The translations under genes were made by a program, and so were the position numbers. A stretch of DNA of 64,000 nt from an uncultured Treponema sp. (GTDB taxonomy: Bacteria > Spirochaetota > Spirochaetia > Treponematales > Treponemataceae): NCBI GenBank assembly GCA_946615905.1, contig CAMOIE010000007.1:1-64000 (forward strand), given 5' to 3'. Positions 21,617 to 30,956 of this stretch are shown here, piece after piece; positions within the stretch are counted from its first letter, which is position 1, and each line of letters begins with the position of its first letter. The notes below the pieces were generated by a model, which saw only the letters and a program-made list of their open reading frames with translations, had not been told where the DNA came from and searched no databases.

Positions 21617-21632
21617 AGTTTCACGTGAAACA
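21617..21632. other. parS site 1
   Basis: AGTTTCACGTGAAACA, one mismatch from the 16-bp palindromic ParB-binding consensus TGTTTCACGTGAAACA. Confidence 0.9.
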
Positions 21633-21786
21633 TTAAAAACTAATTGACAAATAAATACTTGGGATTAGACGAAAAAACAGTCTGAGTATATCTGAAAGCT
21701 ATCAACACATTTCCATACAGCTACTTGGATAAATGATTGTAACATTCATGAACCGTAAGAATTATTGACCAGTAAAAAACTCACAC

Positions 21787-21802
21787 TGTTTCACGTGAAA
21801 CA
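21787..21802. other. parS site 2
   Basis: TGTTTCACGTGAAACA, a perfect palindromic match to the chromosomal parS consensus. Confidence 0.95.
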
Positions 21803-21922
21803 GAAGAAGCATTTATCCATATAAGAAAGTCTCTCAATTTTTTAGTTCGTAATTGAAATCGCAGTCAGGTTCAATACTCTTTTTATACCAAATGGCGGAG
21901 TATTTTCCTCCTGTAGGAATAA

Positions 21923-21938
21923 AGTTTCACGTGAAACA
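21923..21938. other. parS site 3
   Basis: AGTTTCACGTGAAACA, one mismatch from the consensus, identical to site 1. Confidence 0.9.
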
Positions 21939-22143
21939 TATAATGAGAGTCCTTTGTATATTTATCAGCTTTATCATCAATATATTCTTGCAAAATTGAT
22001 TAAAGATACATTTTGCAAAAATTGAATATAAGGACTTTCTTTTGAGCTAAAAAGGCAGGAATAATTCTTTTGTTTGAGAGAAGGATTTAACCCCTCGAAG
22101 ACTTGTCCAGTGTCTGCTAACCCGTAAAAAAGTCTAAAAGTTA

Positions 22144-22159
22144 TGTTTCACGTGAAACA
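22144..22159. other. parS site 4
   Basis: TGTTTCACGTGAAACA, a perfect consensus site, 8 bases from the first DnaA box of the adjacent cluster. Confidence 0.95.
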
Positions 22160-22166
22160 TAAAAAG

Positions 22167-22301
22167 TTTTCCACAAGTTATTCACGCTGTGGAAAAACCA
22201 AAATTCTATGAGTCAAAATTTATTTTCTTAGTTTATAAAGAATTAAAATTCAACTTTTTGGTTTAATCAATTTTTATAAAGATATCCGCAAGTTATCCAC
22301 A
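22167..22301. other. DnaA-box cluster
   Basis: One perfect TTATCCACA (22293-22301). Three sites have one mismatch: TTTTCCACA (22167-22175), TTATTCACG (22178-22186) and, on the opposite strand, TTTTCCACA (22188-22196). A further near-match, TTATCCATA, lies at 21813-21821. This is probably a DnaA-binding part of the origin or a regulatory reservoir. Confidence 0.75.
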
Positions 22302-22427: not shown

Positions 22428-22514
22428 CTTTTGTCACCCAAAAAAGCTCAATTTATTAAAATTATTTTTATAATCAAAATAACTACGTTAATTCCTTATA
22501 TTATAAAGAATTAA

Positions 22515-25004
22515 CTATTCTTCTTTTTCCTCGTCCTCTTGAGCTACACGGTCAAATCCGACTACGTAATCAGGAGAATCAATATTGATTACCCTTGTAC
22601 CGGAAGACCCCCTGCCCTGCTTTGAAATATCGCTGGCTTTTACACGGAGGGTCTTTCCCTGTCCGCTCATACAGACAACTTCATCAGTCTCAGCTACTGC
22701 TATCGCCCCGATGATTTCGCCTTTGCCGTCAGTGTTGCCAAAAATTCTCTGTCCGCCAGTTCCACGTCCGTGGGCAGAGAACTCGTTAAAGTCAACTCTC
22801 TTACCGACTCCGCGCTCTGTAATTACAAGGGCATCAGTACCTTCTTCAACACGGATTGCAGAAGCAAGCTCGTCACCCTCAGAAAGACGAATTCCAGTCA
22901 CACCAGAAGAAGCTCTTCCCATCGGCCGGACATCATCCTCATTCATGCGGAGAGCCTGACCTCTGCGTGTAACCAGCATAATCTCATCTTTTCCACTTGT
23001 AAGAATTGAAGAAACAAGCTTGTCGCCATCCTTAAGCTTAATCGCGATTATTCCACGAGTCTTTGCGTTTGCAAATTCTGTAGTCACACACTTTTTGACA
23101 ACACCGTTCTGGGTTGCCATAAAGATGAACTGATGCTCTGAATATTCTTTCATCGTCACGATAGAAGTTATTTCCTCGTTCGCAGAAACCATCAGCAAAG
23201 ACTTGATATGAGAGCCACGGCTTGATCTTGAAGCCTCTGGAATCTCATGAACTTTAATCCAGTAAGCTTTGCCTTCATTCGTAAGGAAGGTGATATAAGC
23301 ATGAGTTGTAGCGATGAAAATCTGATTGATATAGTCGTCCTCAATCAAGCTGGCAGAAAGGCTTCCTTTGCCTCCCCTGCCCTGCTGCTTGTACTGGGTC
23401 AAAGGAACTCTCTTTATGTAGCCGAGTTTTGAAATCATCACGACGACTTCTTCTTCTTTAATCATGTCCTCGACATTGATTTCTTCGACTTCATCGTGAA
23501 TAATATTCGTGCGGCGGTCGTCCCCGTATTTGTCAGCAAGAGCCTGTGTCTCATCCTTGATGATTCCAAGGATTTTCTCATGATGGGCAAGAAGGTCTTC
23601 CAAATAGGCAATCAAAGCCTGAAGCTCTTTCATCTCTTTGAGAAGGTCTTCTACAAGCAAGTGAGTCAGGCGTTTGAGCTGCATGTCAACGATTGCCTGT
23701 GCCTGCTCGTCATCAAAATCAAAACGTTTTTCAAGCTGGAGCTTGGCGTCTTCTGTATCACGCGCACCACGGATAATCTTGATTACTTCATCGATATTAT
23801 TGATTGCAGTAATCAGGGCTTCCAAAATATGGGCGCGGTGTTTTGCAATCTTCAAATCGTATTCTGTGCGGCGTGTAATAACTTCGTCACGGTGGCCGAC
23901 AAAATACTGAATCAACTGCTTTAAAGTAAGAACCTGCGGACGAAGATAACGGCTGCCGTCTTCACGCTTGACAGGAACCAGAGCCAAATTGATTACGCCG
24001 AAATTTGACTGCAAATCTGTTTTGGCAAAAAGCTGGTTCAAAACAAGTTTTGTAATCGCACCTTTTTTGAGGTCAACAACGAGCCTCATTCCAGACCGGT
24101 CAGAGGACTCATCGTTTGCATTTGAAACACCTTCAATCTGCTTGTCACGGACAAGTTCCTTGATTCTGCGGATTATGTTCGTCGTGTTGACTCCGTAAGG
24201 AACTTCCGTAAATACGATTGACTCTCGGCCGTGCTTGTCAGTCTCGATTGTGAACTTTGAGCGGATTACAATTTTTCCGCGGCCAGTGTTGTAGGCTTTT
24301 TTTATTCCGTCTGTTCCGTAGATAATTCCACCTGTTGGAAAGTCAGGACCTTTGATGTGCCTCATCAATTCATCAATGCTTATGTCATTGTTGTCAATGT
24401 ATGCACAGATTGCAGAGGCTACTTCACGGAGGTTATGGGTCGGCATATTCGTAGCCATACCGACGGCAATACCTGTGGTTCCGTTACAAAGAAGGAATGG
24501 AAATTTTGCAGGAAGGACAGAAGGCTCTTTTGTCGTCTCATCGAAGTTAGCCATCATATCGACGGTTTCTTTGTTGATGTCAGCAACCATCTCCTCGGTG
24601 ATTTTTGACATTTTGGCTTCGGTGTAACGGTAGGCAGCGGCTGGGTCGCCGGCGATTGTACCGAAGTTTCCCTGTGGAGTTACGGTCGTGTAACGCTGGG
24701 CAAAATCCTGACCAAGGCGGACAAGAGCATCATAAACAGAAGCGTCTCCGTGCGGGTGATAATGACCCAAAACTTCACCAACGATTGTGGCGCATTTTTT
24801 TGTCTTTCCACCGCTCGCAAGATGAAGGGTGTCCATCGCGTACATAATTCTGCGGTGAACGGGCTTTAATCCGTCCCGGACATCAGGCAAAGCACGCTGA
24901 ACAATAACGGACATTGAATAGTCAATGTAGGCCTGCTTGACTTCATCCTCAATCGGGATTTTTATAACTGAACCGCCTTCCGGCGTTTTAATTTCGTTTA
25001 ACAT
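22515..25004 (-). CDS. gyrA: DNA gyrase subunit A
   Basis: Breakage-reunion subunit that introduces negative supercoils. The catalytic tyrosine is in AAYRYTEAKM (near 125), and the GyrA-box variant QGRGGKG (near 565) precedes the six-bladed C-terminal DNA-wrapping domain. The quinolone region reads GHYHPHGDASVYD, so the position equivalent to E. coli Ser83 is Ala, while Asp87 is kept. The length is 829. It follows gyrB by 19 bases with an AGGA ribosome site. Three hairpins follow it, the last an intrinsic terminator. Confidence 0.97.
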   Translation of the reverse strand: MLNEIKTPEGGSVIKIPIEDEVKQAYIDYSMSVIVQRALPDVRDGLKPVHRRIMYAMDTLHLASGGKTKKCATIVGEVLGHYHPHGDASVYDALVRLGQDFAQRYTTVTPQGNFGTIAGDPAAAYRYTEAKMSKITEEMVADINKETVDMMANFDETTKEPSVLPAKFPFLLCNGTTGIAVGMATNMPTHNLREVASAICAYIDNNDISIDELMRHIKGPDFPTGGIIYGTDGIKKAYNTGRGKIVIRSKFTIETDKHGRESIVFTEVPYGVNTTNIIRRIKELVRDKQIEGVSNANDESSDRSGMRLVVDLKKGAITKLVLNQLFAKTDLQSNFGVINLALVPVKREDGSRYLRPQVLTLKQLIQYFVGHRDEVITRRTEYDLKIAKHRAHILEALITAINNIDEVIKIIRGARDTEDAKLQLEKRFDFDDEQAQAIVDMQLKRLTHLLVEDLLKEMKELQALIAYLEDLLAHHEKILGIIKDETQALADKYGDDRRTNIIHDEVEEINVEDMIKEEEVVVMISKLGYIKRVPLTQYKQQGRGGKGSLSASLIEDDYINQIFIATTHAYITFLTNEGKAYWIKVHEIPEASRSSRGSHIKSLLMVSANEEITSIVTMKEYSEHQFIFMATQNGVVKKCVTTEFANAKTRGIIAIKLKDGDKLVSSILTSGKDEIMLVTRRGQALRMNEDDVRPMGRASSGVTGIRLSEGDELASAIRVEEGTDALVITERGVGKRVDFNEFSAHGRGTGGQRIFGNTDGKGEIIGAIAVAETDEVVCMSGQGKTLRVKASDISKQGRGSSGTRVINIDSPDYVVGFDRVAQEDEEKEE

Positions 25005-25023
25005 TCTTTATTCCTAAAAATTA

Positions 25024-26952
25024 TTACAAATCCAAATTTGCGTAGCTGGAATTTTCTTCAATAAAGCGGCGGCGTGGCTCTACTTCCTCACCCATGCAGA
25101 CTGAGAAAATCTTGTCAGCAGCAATCGCATCGGGAACTGTAACTACGCGCATCTTACGGCGGGCAGGATCCATTGTCGTTTCCCAAAGCTGGTCTCCGTC
25201 CATTTCACCCAATCCCTTGTAACGCTGGACATCAGCTTTTTCACGCTGGTCTCCCAAAGCCTGTAAAGCCTGCTCGCGTTCTTCTTCCGTGTAAACGTAA
25301 GTTACTTTCGCGTTTTTACCGTTTCCGAGCTGAACTTTGAAAAGCGGAGGCATAGCAAGATATACATATCCTTTTTCAATGAGCTGCGGCATGTAGCGGA
25401 AGAAGAAAGTCAGCAAAAGAGTGCGGATGTGAGAACCGTCAACATCAGCATCAGCCATAATTATGATTTTATGATAACGAAGCTTGTCGATATTGAAGTC
25501 CTTTCCAAATCCTGCTCCGAGAGAAGCAATGACAGGCTCCAATTTGTCGTTGTTCATGACCTTTTCAGGACGGACTTTCTCAACGTTGAGCATTTTTCCC
25601 CAAAGAGGAAGAATTGCCTGAGTCTTCGGGTCTCGGCCTTTTTTAGCAGAACCACCAGCAGAGTCTCCCTCGACAATGTAGACCTCACACTGTTCAGGGT
25701 CTTTAAGAGAGCAGTCTGACAATTTTTCAGGCATTCCAAAACCGTCAGACATAGTTTTTTTGCGGGCATTGTCCTTTGCCTTGCGGGCAGCGATTCTGGC
25801 CTTAGCCTCGTCAATTGACTTTTTGAGAATTGACTCAAGAACAGCGGGATTCTGTTCAAAATAAATTGTCAGCTTTTCTTTTACAACTTGGTCGACAATT
25901 GTGCGGACTTCCGTATTACCGAGTTTTTCTTTTGTCTGACCCTCAAATTCAGGCTCCGGGACTTTCATTGAGATTACGGCAGTCAAACCGGAAGAAAGGT
26001 CTTCATAAGTCAGCTTTTCGTCTTTGTCGATTAACTTTTTGAGTTTTTCATTGGCATCAAAGAATTTGTTAAGAACGAAACGGATTGCGTTTTTAAATCC
26101 TTCGAGATGAGTTCCACCGTCACGAGTATTGATGTCGTTTACAAAAGTATGAATATTCTCTGAATATGAAGAATTGTAGTGCATTGAGATTTCTGTCACT
26201 ACATCGTTTCGCTCTTCTTTGATGTAAATCGGCTCGGCAGGAATTACAGATTTTCCTTCGTCAATTTCTTTTACGAACTCATTGATTCCGCCCTCAAATT
26301 TCAAAATCTCTTCTTTTGGCTTTTCAAGGCGCTCATCGCGGAAAGTAATCACTATTCCCGAATTCAAAAAAGCAAGTTCCCGCAAGCGGTCTTTCAAGAC
26401 ATCGTAATCATAAGTTGTTGTCTCAGTAAAAATTGTCTTGTCGGCCTTCCAGCGGATTGTTGTTCCGTGTTTGTCAGAGTCACCGATTATCTCAACTTTT
26501 GTCTTGGGAATTCCTTTTTCATATTTTTGACGGTAAATGTGGCCGTCACGGGTGACTGTAGCTTCCATCCAGTCTGAAAGGGCGTTTACACAGGAAACAC
26601 CTACTCCGTGCAAACCTCCAGAAACTTTGTAAGAGCCTTTATCAAATTTTCCTCCGGCATGAAGGCGGGTCAAAACAAGTTCCAAAGCGGAAATATGCTC
26701 GGTCGGATGAATGTCAACAGGAATTCCACGGCCGTTGTCCTCAACACGGACAACATCGTCTTTTTCAAGGGCAACTACGATTGTATCGCAAAAACCGGCC
26801 ATCGCCTCATCGATTGAGTTGTCAACAGTTTCATAAACAAGATGATGGAGACCTCTCGGACCTGTGGAACCGATATACATACCGGGACGTTTGCGGACAG
26901 CTTCCAAGCCTTTCAAGACCTGAATATTACCCGCTGAATAAGAAGCAGACAT
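25024..26952 (-). CDS. gyrB: DNA gyrase subunit B
   Basis: ATPase subunit of gyrase. It contains the GHKL ATPase motifs (DNSIDEAMAG, VEDNGRGIP, GLHGVGVSCVNALS), the transducer domain, and TOPRIM with EGDSAGGSAKKGRD (near 425) and DADVDGSHIRTLL. The length of 642 is the short form without the enterobacterial insert. The ribosome site is TAAGGA. It is divergent from dnaA with interleaved promoters and is transcribed away from the origin with gyrA. Confidence 0.97.
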   Translation of the reverse strand: MSASYSAGNIQVLKGLEAVRKRPGMYIGSTGPRGLHHLVYETVDNSIDEAMAGFCDTIVVALEKDDVVRVEDNGRGIPVDIHPTEHISALELVLTRLHAGGKFDKGSYKVSGGLHGVGVSCVNALSDWMEATVTRDGHIYRQKYEKGIPKTKVEIIGDSDKHGTTIRWKADKTIFTETTTYDYDVLKDRLRELAFLNSGIVITFRDERLEKPKEEILKFEGGINEFVKEIDEGKSVIPAEPIYIKEERNDVVTEISMHYNSSYSENIHTFVNDINTRDGGTHLEGFKNAIRFVLNKFFDANEKLKKLIDKDEKLTYEDLSSGLTAVISMKVPEPEFEGQTKEKLGNTEVRTIVDQVVKEKLTIYFEQNPAVLESILKKSIDEAKARIAARKAKDNARKKTMSDGFGMPEKLSDCSLKDPEQCEVYIVEGDSAGGSAKKGRDPKTQAILPLWGKMLNVEKVRPEKVMNNDKLEPVIASLGAGFGKDFNIDKLRYHKIIIMADADVDGSHIRTLLLTFFFRYMPQLIEKGYVYLAMPPLFKVQLGNGKNAKVTYVYTEEEREQALQALGDQREKADVQRYKGLGEMDGDQLWETTMDPARRKMRVVTVPDAIAADKIFSVCMGEEVEPRRRFIEENSSYANLDL

Positions 26953-27020
26953 TTTTTTTCCTTATTTTTTCCGTCGATTTAATGACGTATTTTATATGAA
27001 AAGATTTAAAGAGCGTTAAA

Positions 27021-27049
27021 ATTATATTTGCATTGCCAAAAAAAGTAAA
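27021..27049 (-). promoter_or_regulatory. Candidate gyrBA promoter
   Basis: Minus strand TTTACT (27044-27049), 17 bases, TATAAT (27021-27026), giving a ~62-base leader. It interleaves with the divergent dnaA promoter, so the two polymerases could not bind at once. Confidence 0.4.
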
Positions 27050-27062
27050 GGCGGTTTATAAT
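27033..27062 (+). promoter_or_regulatory. dnaA promoter, leaderless arrangement
   Basis: TTGCCA (27033-27038), 18 bases, TATAAT (27057-27062), then six bases to ATG at 27069. The predicted transcript starts at the start codon itself. Confidence 0.6.
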
Positions 27063-27068
27063 GACGCC

Positions 27069-28502
27069 ATGTCTGAGCAAAATTACCGGGAATTTTTTGA
27101 AGAAGCCCTTTCCCAAATCCACGAAGAATACAAAAACAACAATCAGGAAGATGATTTTAAACTTTGGTTTAGAATGAGCTACGTTGAGGACACTATTTCT
27201 CAAATCACAGTGTCCGTAGCCTCTGAATTCATGTGGAAACAGATGAATTCCCGTGGAAGTGTCGAAAAAATTCAGAAAAAAATCACGGAATTGACAGGAC
27301 TTGAAATTCAACTGAATCATATAGTCCAAAACAAGCCTGCAGAAAGTGAGCAAAAAACAGAGATTCCTCAAACTCCACAAAAAAAAGAAGAATCTCCAGA
27401 AGAAAAAATAGAAATTTCAAATGATTCTGAGATAAAACCCTCAAAAGCTTTTAAAAAGCATCCACAGCTTCGCGATGATTATACTTTTGAGAATTTCGTC
27501 ACCGGAGAAAATTCTGAATACGCCTATCAGGTTTGTATGGCAGCCGCGCGGGATCCAGGAGATAAATATAATCCTATTTTGATTTACGGAGGAGTCGGTC
27601 TTGGAAAAACCCACCTGATGGAATCTATCGGAAACTATCTTTATGCCCAAAAAGGTGATGATATAAAAATCTGCTACATCAGTGCGGAAACATTTACAAA
27701 CGAATTTGTCGCCTCTATCCGCGAGAAGTCTACCGAAAAGTTCAAGAAAAAATACCGCAACCTCGATGTACTTCTTTTGGACGATGTTCACTTTCTCGAT
27801 GAAAACAAAGACGCAGTTCAAGAAGAGCTTTTTTACACTTTCAACAGTCTTTATGACAGAAAGTGCCAGATGGTGTTCACATGTGACCGCCCGATTAATG
27901 AAGTCAAAGGACTTGAAGAAAGACTTCGCACCCGTTTCTCCAGAGGACTAAAACTTAACCTCTCAATGCCAAGCTACGAGACCCGCCGGGCAATTCTTGA
28001 AAAAAAACTCGCCTCTCAGGAAAAACCCGTTGATATTCCTGCTGACGTAATCGACTACATCGCAAAAAATGTCAAAACAAACATCCGTGACTTGGAATCT
28101 TGTCTCACACAGATGATTGCCTTCTCTGATTTGGTCGGAAAGCCAATTACAATTCAAGTTGCACAAGACCAGCTCAGGGACTCTCTTTCATCTTCTGTCT
28201 CAGGTTCTATAAGCATGGACACGATTCAAAAGGTCGTTGCAAATCACTACGGAATTTCAATCTCTGACATAAAGTCCAAGCACCGGCAGAAAAAATTGGT
28301 ATTTCCACGCCAGATTGCAATTTATATTTCCCGCGAAATCACTGAGTATTCATTCCCGGATATTGCTCAGGAATTCGGCGGAAAAGACCACACGACAATC
28401 ATGCACTCGTACCAGAAAATTCAGGACCAAATGAAAACTGACTCTTCTCTGGCATCCACAATTGACCTTTTAATCAGGGAGATAAAAGACTATAAGAATT
28501 AA
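27069..28502 (+). CDS. dnaA: Chromosomal replication initiator DnaA
   Basis: AAA+ initiator that binds DnaA boxes and melts the origin. Domain I covers about 1-80 and a Glu/Lys-rich linker 80-125. The ATPase core has GGVGLGKTHL (Walker A) and LLLDDVHFL (Walker B). C-terminal domain IV carries the DNA-binding signature GGKDHTTIMHSY (near 445). I use the ATG at 27069 (MSEQNYREF), not the in-frame TTG at 27033, because that TTG lies in the promoter -35. This gives 477 residues. No Shine-Dalgarno sequence. Confidence 0.96.
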   Translation: MSEQNYREFFEEALSQIHEEYKNNNQEDDFKLWFRMSYVEDTISQITVSVASEFMWKQMNSRGSVEKIQKKITELTGLEIQLNHIVQNKPAESEQKTEIPQTPQKKEESPEEKIEISNDSEIKPSKAFKKHPQLRDDYTFENFVTGENSEYAYQVCMAAARDPGDKYNPILIYGGVGLGKTHLMESIGNYLYAQKGDDIKICYISAETFTNEFVASIREKSTEKFKKKYRNLDVLLLDDVHFLDENKDAVQEELFYTFNSLYDRKCQMVFTCDRPINEVKGLEERLRTRFSRGLKLNLSMPSYETRRAILEKKLASQEKPVDIPADVIDYIAKNVKTNIRDLESCLTQMIAFSDLVGKPITIQVAQDQLRDSLSSSVSGSISMDTIQKVVANHYGISISDIKSKHRQKKLVFPRQIAIYISREITEYSFPDIAQEFGGKDHTTIMHSYQKIQDQMKTDSSLASTIDLLIREIKDYKN

Positions 28503-28746
28503 AATAAAGCTGTTAAAAAACTGACAGATTCCTGTGAACAAATTGTTGAAAAATAAAAAATCTGTGTAAAAGTGGAAAACTTGTGATTTCAAAATGGCAA
28601 GTTATACACTTTTCAAAACTTTACAAAATAAAGAATTAGATTCATTTTCAACAAATTCACAGCCCTTATTATTACTATTACTAAATTTTAAAATTTTATA
28701 TAATATATAAGCAAGTGGAAAAACACTTGTAAAAAAGGAGAACTAT
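28503..28746. other. oriC: Probable oriC unwinding region (DnaA boxes, DnaA-trio, AT-rich DUE)
   Basis: The 244-base dnaA-dnaN gap holds near-consensus boxes: TGTGAACAA (28533-28541, reverse), TGTGTAAAA (28563-28571, reverse) and TTATACACT (28602-28610). Then come a weaker AAATTCACA (28653-28661), a short GC-rich GCCC, and six triplets TTA/CTA (28666-28683) whose complement matches the DnaA-trio pattern. The very AT-rich stretch 28681-28710 follows. The order box, GC patch, trio, AT-rich matches the basal unwinding system defined in Bacillus. Confidence 0.75.
28699..28731 (+). promoter_or_regulatory. Candidate dnaN -10 element and leader hairpin
   Basis: TATAAT lies at 28699-28704, followed by the inverted repeat CAAGTG-N6-CACTTG just before the ribosome site AAGGAG. 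The -35 is not clear. Confidence 0.35.
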
Positions 28747-29862
28747 ATGACGTTCACGTTCGACCGAAACGCAATGATAAGTGAAATTGCAATTGCTCAG
28801 GAAGTCATTTCTACAAAAAGCGCACTTTCAATTCTTTCAAACATCCTTTTCATTGCTCAAAACAATACGTTGACTGTAAAAGCGACTGACATCAAAGTAA
28901 ATTTTGAGACAAAGATTCCTGTTGATATCCAAGAGGAAGGGTCAACTACGATTTTCTGTGATAAATTTATTGGAATCCTTTCTTCAATGCCGGAAGGCGA
29001 AGTTGAATTCAAACTTGACCAGAAAGATAATCAGACAATCGCTGTGATTCGTCATACGACAAAAAAAATCAAATTCCAGCTTAAATGCATGTCTCAGGAC
29101 AAATTCCCTGAGTTCCCCGAAGCTGAGAAAGTTCCATTCTTTGAGGTTCCTTCAAAAGAACTCAAATCTATGATTGCACAGACTTCTTTCGCTGTTTCTG
29201 AAGATGAGACCCGCTACTTTATGAACGGTGTTTTCTTTGAAAAGAAAGATGACAATCTCAACTTGGTCGCTACTGACGGACGTCGCCTTGCATTCGCATC
29301 AAAAGCTGTTCTTGGCGGGGTTCAGGACTTTCCGGCAGCAATCGTTCATCCGAAAGTTTTGAATGTTGTTGCAAAACACGCTTCTGATGAGGGAAATATC
29401 TCAGTCGCAATCGTTGACAAAATGATTTTCTTCAAGTTCTCTAACTATGAGCTTTCTTCAACTTTGATTGACGGACAGTTCCCGAACTATTCTCGCGTAA
29501 TCCCGGAAAAACAACTTTATTCTTTCCAGGTTCAGAAATCAGAATTGGTCGATGCCCTCAAGCGCACTTCTCTCATGGTTGACAAAAAGGCCGGACGTAT
29601 TTATATGAAAGTCACTCCAGGAGTTTTGACGGTTACTTCTCAGGAATCAGACTTGGGAGACGCAAACGAGGAAATGCCCTGCGAATATGCTGGAGAAGAG
29701 ACTACGATTGCGATGAATTATCTTTACATCGAGGAGCCTCTGAAAGAAATCAAGAGCGAGAGAATCACTTTTGAATTCTCAGAGGCAATGCGCGCTGTGA
29801 CAATCCGTCCGGAGCCTGCAGAAGATTATTTCCACATCGTAATGCCGATGCAGATGGCGTAA
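28747..29862 (+). CDS. dnaN: DNA polymerase III beta subunit (sliding clamp)
   Basis: Ring-shaped processivity clamp. The 371 residues fit the three repeated clamp domains, with conserved ATDGRRLAFA (near 175) and the usual C-terminal VMPMQMA. A strong AAGGAG site precedes the ATG. Its stop overlaps the recF start by one base (TAATG). Confidence 0.97.
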   Translation: MTFTFDRNAMISEIAIAQEVISTKSALSILSNILFIAQNNTLTVKATDIKVNFETKIPVDIQEEGSTTIFCDKFIGILSSMPEGEVEFKLDQKDNQTIAVIRHTTKKIKFQLKCMSQDKFPEFPEAEKVPFFEVPSKELKSMIAQTSFAVSEDETRYFMNGVFFEKKDDNLNLVATDGRRLAFASKAVLGGVQDFPAAIVHPKVLNVVAKHASDEGNISVAIVDKMIFFKFSNYELSSTLIDGQFPNYSRVIPEKQLYSFQVQKSELVDALKRTSLMVDKKAGRIYMKVTPGVLTVTSQESDLGDANEEMPCEYAGEETTIAMNYLYIEEPLKEIKSERITFEFSEAMRAVTIRPEPAEDYFHIVMPMQMA

Positions 29863-30956
29863 TGCCTGTACTTTCCGCTTCATTCGTAAATTACAGAAAT
29901 CTCGAAAACAAGACGATAGACCTTCTTTCAAAGGAGGTCTATTTTGTCGGTGAAAACGGTCAGGGAAAGTCTAATCTTCTTGAGTCTATTTATTATTCGG
30001 CATACGGAAATTCATTCAGAACACGCGCTGACGCAGAAATAGTCCGTGAAGGCGAGAAGTCTTTCAGCTTGAAAACCCTTTACCGGGAAGATTCTGGGGT
30101 GACAGACTCGATTTTTGTCGCCTTTGAGAACGGCAAAAAAAGAATCGAAAAAAATTCAAAAAAAATCACCGATAGAAAAGAGCTTATCAACACGATGCCC
30201 TGCGTTCTTTTTAGTCACGATGACTTGGAATTCGCCGTCGGGGAGCCGGAGAAAAAACGTTTTTTCATTGACCAGTGTCTTTCGATGTATGACGTTCTTT
30301 ACATCGACACAATTAGAAAATACAAGCGGATTTTAAAAAGCCGCAATCAGACTTTGAAGGAATTCAAATATGACATGCTTGATGTCTATGATTTGCAGCT
30401 TGCTCAGGAAGGAGCTGAAATAGAGCGCAAAAGACGGGACGCGATTTTTCAGTTCAACCAGATTTTCGGAAAACTTTATGAGCAAATCACGGGAATAGAC
30501 GGACTTTCGATAAAATATGAGCCTTCCTGGAAAATGAATGAAAATCAAATTCCTACGCAAGATGAGATTTTAAAGATTTTGCAGTCAACAAGGGAAATGG
30601 ACCGCGTTATCCAAACTACGATGAGCGGACCCCACCGGGATAAAATTCGTTTTGTAAGAAACGGTGAGAATTTCATCCCGACAGCATCGACAGGACAGCG
30701 GAGATTGACAGCGATTTTGCTTAGAATCGGTCAGGCGATTTTTTACAGCCAAATTTCGCAGAAAAAACCTCTTTTGCTGATGGACGATGTTCTTTTGGAA
30801 CTTGACCCTGACAAAAGACAGAGCGTTACTGCGAATCTTCCTGAATACGACCAGCTTTTTTGTACTTTTTTGCCGGGAGAACCTTACGAGCGTTACAAGC
30901 ATTCGACAACTAGAATTTATAAAATTGAAAAAGGGAGCTGGAAAGAAGAATTATGA
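29862..30956 (+). CDS. recF: DNA replication/repair protein RecF
   Basis: SMC-like ATPase that loads RecA at gaps and helps restart forks. Walker A is GENGQGKSNLLESI (near 31), the signature-like region STGQRRLTA (near 273), and Walker B LLMDDVLLELD (near 305). The length of 364 is normal. Start and stop overlap dnaN and the next gene, indicating one coupled operon. Confidence 0.95.
   Translation: MPVLSASFVNYRNLENKTIDLLSKEVYFVGENGQGKSNLLESIYYSAYGNSFRTRADAEIVREGEKSFSLKTLYREDSGVTDSIFVAFENGKKRIEKNSKKITDRKELINTMPCVLFSHDDLEFAVGEPEKKRFFIDQCLSMYDVLYIDTIRKYKRILKSRNQTLKEFKYDMLDVYDLQLAQEGAEIERKRRDAIFQFNQIFGKLYEQITGIDGLSIKYEPSWKMNENQIPTQDEILKILQSTREMDRVIQTTMSGPHRDKIRFVRNGENFIPTASTGQRRLTAILLRIGQAIFYSQISQKKPLLLMDDVLLELDPDKRQSVTANLPEYDQLFCTFLPGEPYERYKHSTTRIYKIEKGSWKEEL

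Follow-up and report, generated by a model that had tools for sequence, protein, structure and literature searches.

Does the dnaA-dnaN gap of this uncultured treponeme hold the origin of its chromosome, and if so, is the duplex opened there in the manner known from Bacillus? The window analyzed here is a single stretch of 64,000 nucleotides that contains both genes. We put the probability at about 90% that the gap is the chromosome's oriC and contains a basal unwinding system (BUS), which DnaA opens by way of its boxes and six DnaA-trios. This reading is favored because the triplet register is largely kept in 97 gaps of the genus, a profile of the module outscores shuffled sequences, the duplex is the weakest in the window and DnaA retains most of the relevant residues. 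It is further favored because one clade with inverted modules keeps their internal order, the module stays with dnaA in a genome where dnaN lies elsewhere, and the minimum of the GC walk fits. The result would give treponemes a precise origin.

By analogy with B. subtilis, we infer that DnaA would do the melting in the following order. It would first bind the double-stranded boxes, of which boxes A and B could serve as a platform. A DnaA filament would then grow from box B across the GC-rich spacer onto the bottom strand, where each step may capture one of the six 3'-RAT-5' trios. This capture is expected to pull the strands apart into the adjoining AT-rich zone, where the helicase would be loaded. 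The initial annotation had proposed that a Bacillus-type mechanism melts the origin here, and as sequence evidence that proposal is well supported, with opening by DnaA itself remaining a prediction.

A unique module on the weakest duplex of the window

Features of the dnaA-dnaN region and of the site downstream of gyrA (window coordinates)
Feature	Position	Strand	Basis
dnaA, initiator	27069..28502	+	Pfam Bac_DnaA and Bac_DnaA_C; alignment to 8btg
Distal array of weak, reverse-oriented DnaA boxes (28533, 28544, 28563 TTTTACACA, 28571)	28533..28579	-	box scan
Box C, TTATACACT	28602..28610	+	nearly fixed position, 64 bases upstream of trio 1
AT-rich linker from box C to box A, near-constant length	28612..28638	+	genus column conservation
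Box A, TTTTCAACA, first of tandem pair	28645..28653	+	box scan, genus conservation
Box B, AAATTCACA, second of tandem pair	28653..28661	+	sequence; conserved at -13..-5
GC-rich spacer GCCC, 4 bp	28662..28665	+	sequence; genus columns
Six DnaA-trios, bottom strand 3'-AAT AAT AAT GAT AAT GAT-5'	28666..28683	-	sequence, uniqueness, register test
AT-rich unwinding zone (genus: AAWTTT-rich)	28684..28714	+	duplex stability
dnaN, sliding clamp	28747..29862	+	Pfam DNA_pol3_beta
Candidate alternative start with four exact parS (21618, 21788, 21924, 22145) and DnaA boxes (22167, 22178, 22188, 22293)	21618..22301		parS search, box scan, profile

A BUS is recognized by a DnaA box no more than 16 bp away from the trios, an unbroken run of three or more 3'-NAN-5' trios on the correct strand, a short GC-rich spacer, an AT-rich melting zone and a register that is kept in relatives, and each of these is found at this locus. 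Boxes B and A, which overlap by one base (28653), end 4 bp and 12 bp ahead of trio 1, and both are weak. The six trios are consecutive, lie on the correct strand and are all 3'-RAT-5'; the top strand reads TTA TTA TTA CTA TTA CTA and continues with AATTTTAAAATTTTATATAATATATAA. The last box, the 4-base GC patch, the six triplets and the AT stretch of the initial annotation match the sequence base for base, and box A was absent from that description. The DnaA boxes that it called near-consensus do exist, but the term overstates them: no 9-mer in the gap comes within one mismatch of TTATCCACA, and the box scan gives one box only that matches TTWTNCACA exactly. The upstream gene could also begin earlier, since a longer dnaA frame is possible from a TTG at 27033.

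The (YTA)x6 run occurs once in the 2.96-Mb genome, and a genome-wide search with the backwards version of the same pattern as a control gave zero matches. Shuffling the gap produced a run of six on either strand in 5 of 100,000 trials. A profile of the boxes, spacer, trios and AT tract scores 67.4 bits at the gap, against -14.5 for the next best place in the window. Nearest-neighbor energies put the weakest 50-bp duplex of the window at 28665-28714 and the weakest 30-bp duplex at 28681-28710.

The B. subtilis incC BUS (DnaA-boxes 6/7) has the same tandem boxes, GC-rich spacer of about 4 bp, trio strand and polarity, and AT-rich zone beyond the trios, with six trios seen in its structure (PMC8287927, PMC10721633). 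In the treponeme, however, the boxes are weaker, the box-proximal trios are mostly AAT instead of GAT, and DciA is encoded beside recF, where a DciA-like gene follows. According to a published survey, BUS modules are predicted in 85% of 2070 origins, and GAT is the commonest trio, above all beside the box (PMC8287927). The treponeme module is a new example of a known system, and the conserved inversion found in its relatives is the most novel part.

Order, spacing, register and number are conserved

The dnaA-dnaN gaps of relatives were sampled from the genus Treponema and from other spirochaete families. The boxes, 4-bp spacer, six YTA triplets and AT tract are present in nearly all of them and stay recognizable outside the genus. 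A 55-column profile of these parts was trained on 47 forward loci and compared with 6040 dinucleotide shuffles. The real sequence outscores all of the shuffles at 111 of the 120 loci from the genus, and at 132 of 151 when every locus is counted. Newly added loci, which played no part in the training, behave in the same way, and the exceptions within the genus are mostly loci for which dnaA was not found beside dnaN.

The initial annotation held that its reading would fall if relatives did not conserve the triplet register. This was examined in 97 genus gaps, which were aligned on 22 box and spacer columns only so that the result would not be circular. The register is kept: YTA occupies triplets 1 to 6 in 94, 94, 88, 81, 90 and 91% of the gaps and triplet 7 in 0%, and shifted frames give YTA at triplets 1 to 6 in at most 5%. 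The array is consequently six long with a sharp end, and AAT or AAA directly follows the sixth trio. All six trios are intact in 66 of the 97 gaps and five in another 23, with degenerate trios in some genomes. This fixed count agrees with the B. subtilis structure, in which seven DnaA protomers are seen with six trios (PMC10721633). The run could also be viewed as a TTA/CTA microsatellite made by chance or slippage, as its simple triplet sequence and AT-rich surroundings might invite, but that origin is so improbable as to be nearly negligible. The number is fixed at six, the units are mixed, the end is sharp, the treponeme genome has one copy, the distance to the boxes is constant throughout the genus and in other families, and the register test contradicts it.

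The initial annotation had cited 3'-GAT/AAT repeats as the trios of the Bacillus oriC. In Treponema the box-proximal members need a correction: the first three trios are mostly 3'-AAT-5' (top-strand T in 82-89%) and not GAT. Upstream of the trios, the spacer carries C at -1 in 85% of genus loci and at -2 in 64%. Counted from trio 1, box B begins at -13, box A at -21 (shifted upstream by one base in one lineage), the linker spans -54 to -28, and box C, in forward orientation, lies near -64. Distal boxes mostly oppose the module (379 reverse and 72 forward in 102 forward genomes).

Within the linker, 96% of 111 genus loci have A at -51 and 93% have A at -36, in the genus pattern TAATTTCTTTA-n5-TAAAGAATTAA; other spirochaetes have weaker traces. 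Box C and the linker may assist opening by bending or looping the DNA, and the linker is a candidate site for a DNA-bending protein. A strict inverted repeat was considered and rejected for the linker; its arms match in some genomes only, and for this reason no binding protein is named. The HU-like protein Hbb of Borrelia may bind near oriC, and a literature search for such binding returned one paper, which was unrelated.

The oriC of Borrelia burgdorferi is the same dnaA-dnaN gap and is bound by DnaA in gel-shift experiments (PMC9879097). Its boxes are strongly unlike TTATCCACA, and Borrelia-like loci carry a trio array, with six pyrimidine-T-A triplets in one of them. Among the papers searched, none offered a trio analysis of this origin, and those that use the term DnaA-trio made no mention of Borrelia or other spirochaetes. 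In a genome from the same family as the treponeme that resembles T. pallidum in size (1.1 Mb), only three clean trios follow the boxes and the rest are degenerate, which counts against the oriC reading.

Aligned to B. subtilis DnaA (8btg), the DnaA of this treponeme keeps the equivalents of E183, N187, I193, K222, E228 and R264 and has Val for I190, Lys for N196 and Lys for R202. Of 111 DnaAs from the genus, 84 have Thr at position 190 and 92 have Lys at position 202. Most such residues touch the captured bases or hold them apart in B. subtilis, where R202 makes a guanine contact, and none of the trio-pocket residues is universal (PMC10721633). Since most are kept and the 190 and 202 places differ, the trio-binding chemistry is predicted to be close to that of B. 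subtilis but not identical. The changes at 190 (Val or Thr) and 202 (Lys) count against the oriC reading. Only two Arg genomes were scored, too few to tie the residue at position 202 to G or A in the trios.

Inverted modules in one clade

A plus-strand scan had left several genomes of the genus apparently without trios, a result that was discarded when the opposite strand showed an inverted module. In eight genomes (L078, L080, L082, L083, L084, L141, L142 and L143) the profile reaches 26-54 bits when the reverse strand is read and stays below -23 when the forward strand is read. The dnaN tree groups the eight in a single clade (support 99, one change), and its sister is a pair of forward genomes (L077 and L146). 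When the inverted gaps are reverse-complemented, they align to the sister gap with 67-77% identity over about 165-245 bp, mostly about 190 bp, and with alignment scores of 70-100 compared with 24-39 on the same strand. The mutual orientation of dnaA and dnaN is unchanged. The internal arrangement, from the box array through boxes and trios to the AT zone, is also kept, and the module as a whole is directed toward dnaA and not toward dnaN. The single change in one clade, the reverse-complement alignment to the sisters and the retained gene orientation indicate that the origin module was turned once, as a unit, in place between the two genes.

Conservation in eight genomes suggests that the inverted origins still work. 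If they do, then the trios would be free to change polarity, and the strand that is the first to be occupied by DnaA, and perhaps by the first helicase, would change with them. Taken as a whole, it is quite probable that a complete oriC module of about 190 bp has turned around between the two genes in this clade and still functions, that trio polarity may flip relative to genes and forks, and that the genus otherwise holds to a fixed layout of six trios, a near-constant linker to a third box and possibly a site for a bending protein. The origin region of B. subtilis loses its activity when only boxes 6/7 are reversed (PMC6669920), whereas the Treponema clade has the whole module reversed. The inversion makes it testable whether origin polarity is important.

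These genomes also bear on whether the conserved block could be a promoter or leader of dnaN and not an origin element. Most genomes have the block some 50-150 bp ahead of dnaN, with an AT stretch that looks like a -10 region. In the eight inverted genomes, however, it is inverted and lies beside dnaA, and a TATAAT-like box of its own (GCGCTATAATAG) adjoins dnaN in most of the gaps. In one further genome (G060), the block stays with dnaA, 43 kb from dnaN. A promoter or leader function is thus very improbable, and an unwinding module remains the preferred reading of the block. The G060 arrangement is found on contig 2 (L203, L021), where gyrA, gyrB, dnaA and the origin module lie at 61-67 kb and dnaN-recF at 24 kb; either dnaN has been split from oriC by 43 kb, or the contig is misassembled.

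GC skew and the region downstream of gyrA

The minimum of the GC walk in the window is a plateau at 28467-30239, in agreement with dnaA-dnaN. In relatives the GC-skew switch can be placed only to within about 7 kb, with minima up to 6.7 kb to the left and one genome (G087) uninformative. Third-position GC skew is negative on the coding strand of each of gyrA, gyrB and dnaA (22515-28502), which does not fit a simple leading-strand expectation. GC skew was accordingly set aside as a fine locator of the origin, since the gyrA and gyrB third-position skews contradict expectation and the minima wander in relatives; both observations count against the oriC reading.

The initial annotation had named 21.4-22.5 kb as another place where replication could start, in which case the dnaA-dnaN gap would be an auxiliary DnaA site. 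The region has perfect DnaA boxes, TTTTCCACA and TTATCCACA (22293 and 22167), and their contrast with the weak boxes of the gap counts against the oriC reading. It has AT-rich stretches and weak duplex at 22454 and 22201, and in two of the inverted genomes the skew reaches its minimum 4.4-6.7 kb to the left of dnaN. Relatives have DnaA boxes in the corresponding region at 0.70 per kb, often 20-23 bp apart, compared with 0.04 per kb in the flanking genes. However, neither 21.4-22.5 kb in the window nor its counterpart in 51 relatives has a trio array (best profile score -7), and the GC walk drops by a further 166 (z about -3) between 21.9 and 28.6 kb. Four exact copies of parS, GTTTCACGTGAAAC, also lie within 540 bp downstream of gyrA, and the genome has no others even if one mismatch is allowed. 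A replication start at this site is therefore improbable, and we retain the gap as oriC.

Because all four parS copies of the genome sit at 21.4-22.5 kb, the best reading of this region is a chromosomal centromere that also carries a cluster of DnaA boxes, and not an unwinding site. ParB-type proteins are encoded elsewhere in the genome, and about half of the relatives have an exact parS in the equivalent stretch. With parS sites lying beside strong DnaA boxes, segregation and the control of DnaA may be linked.
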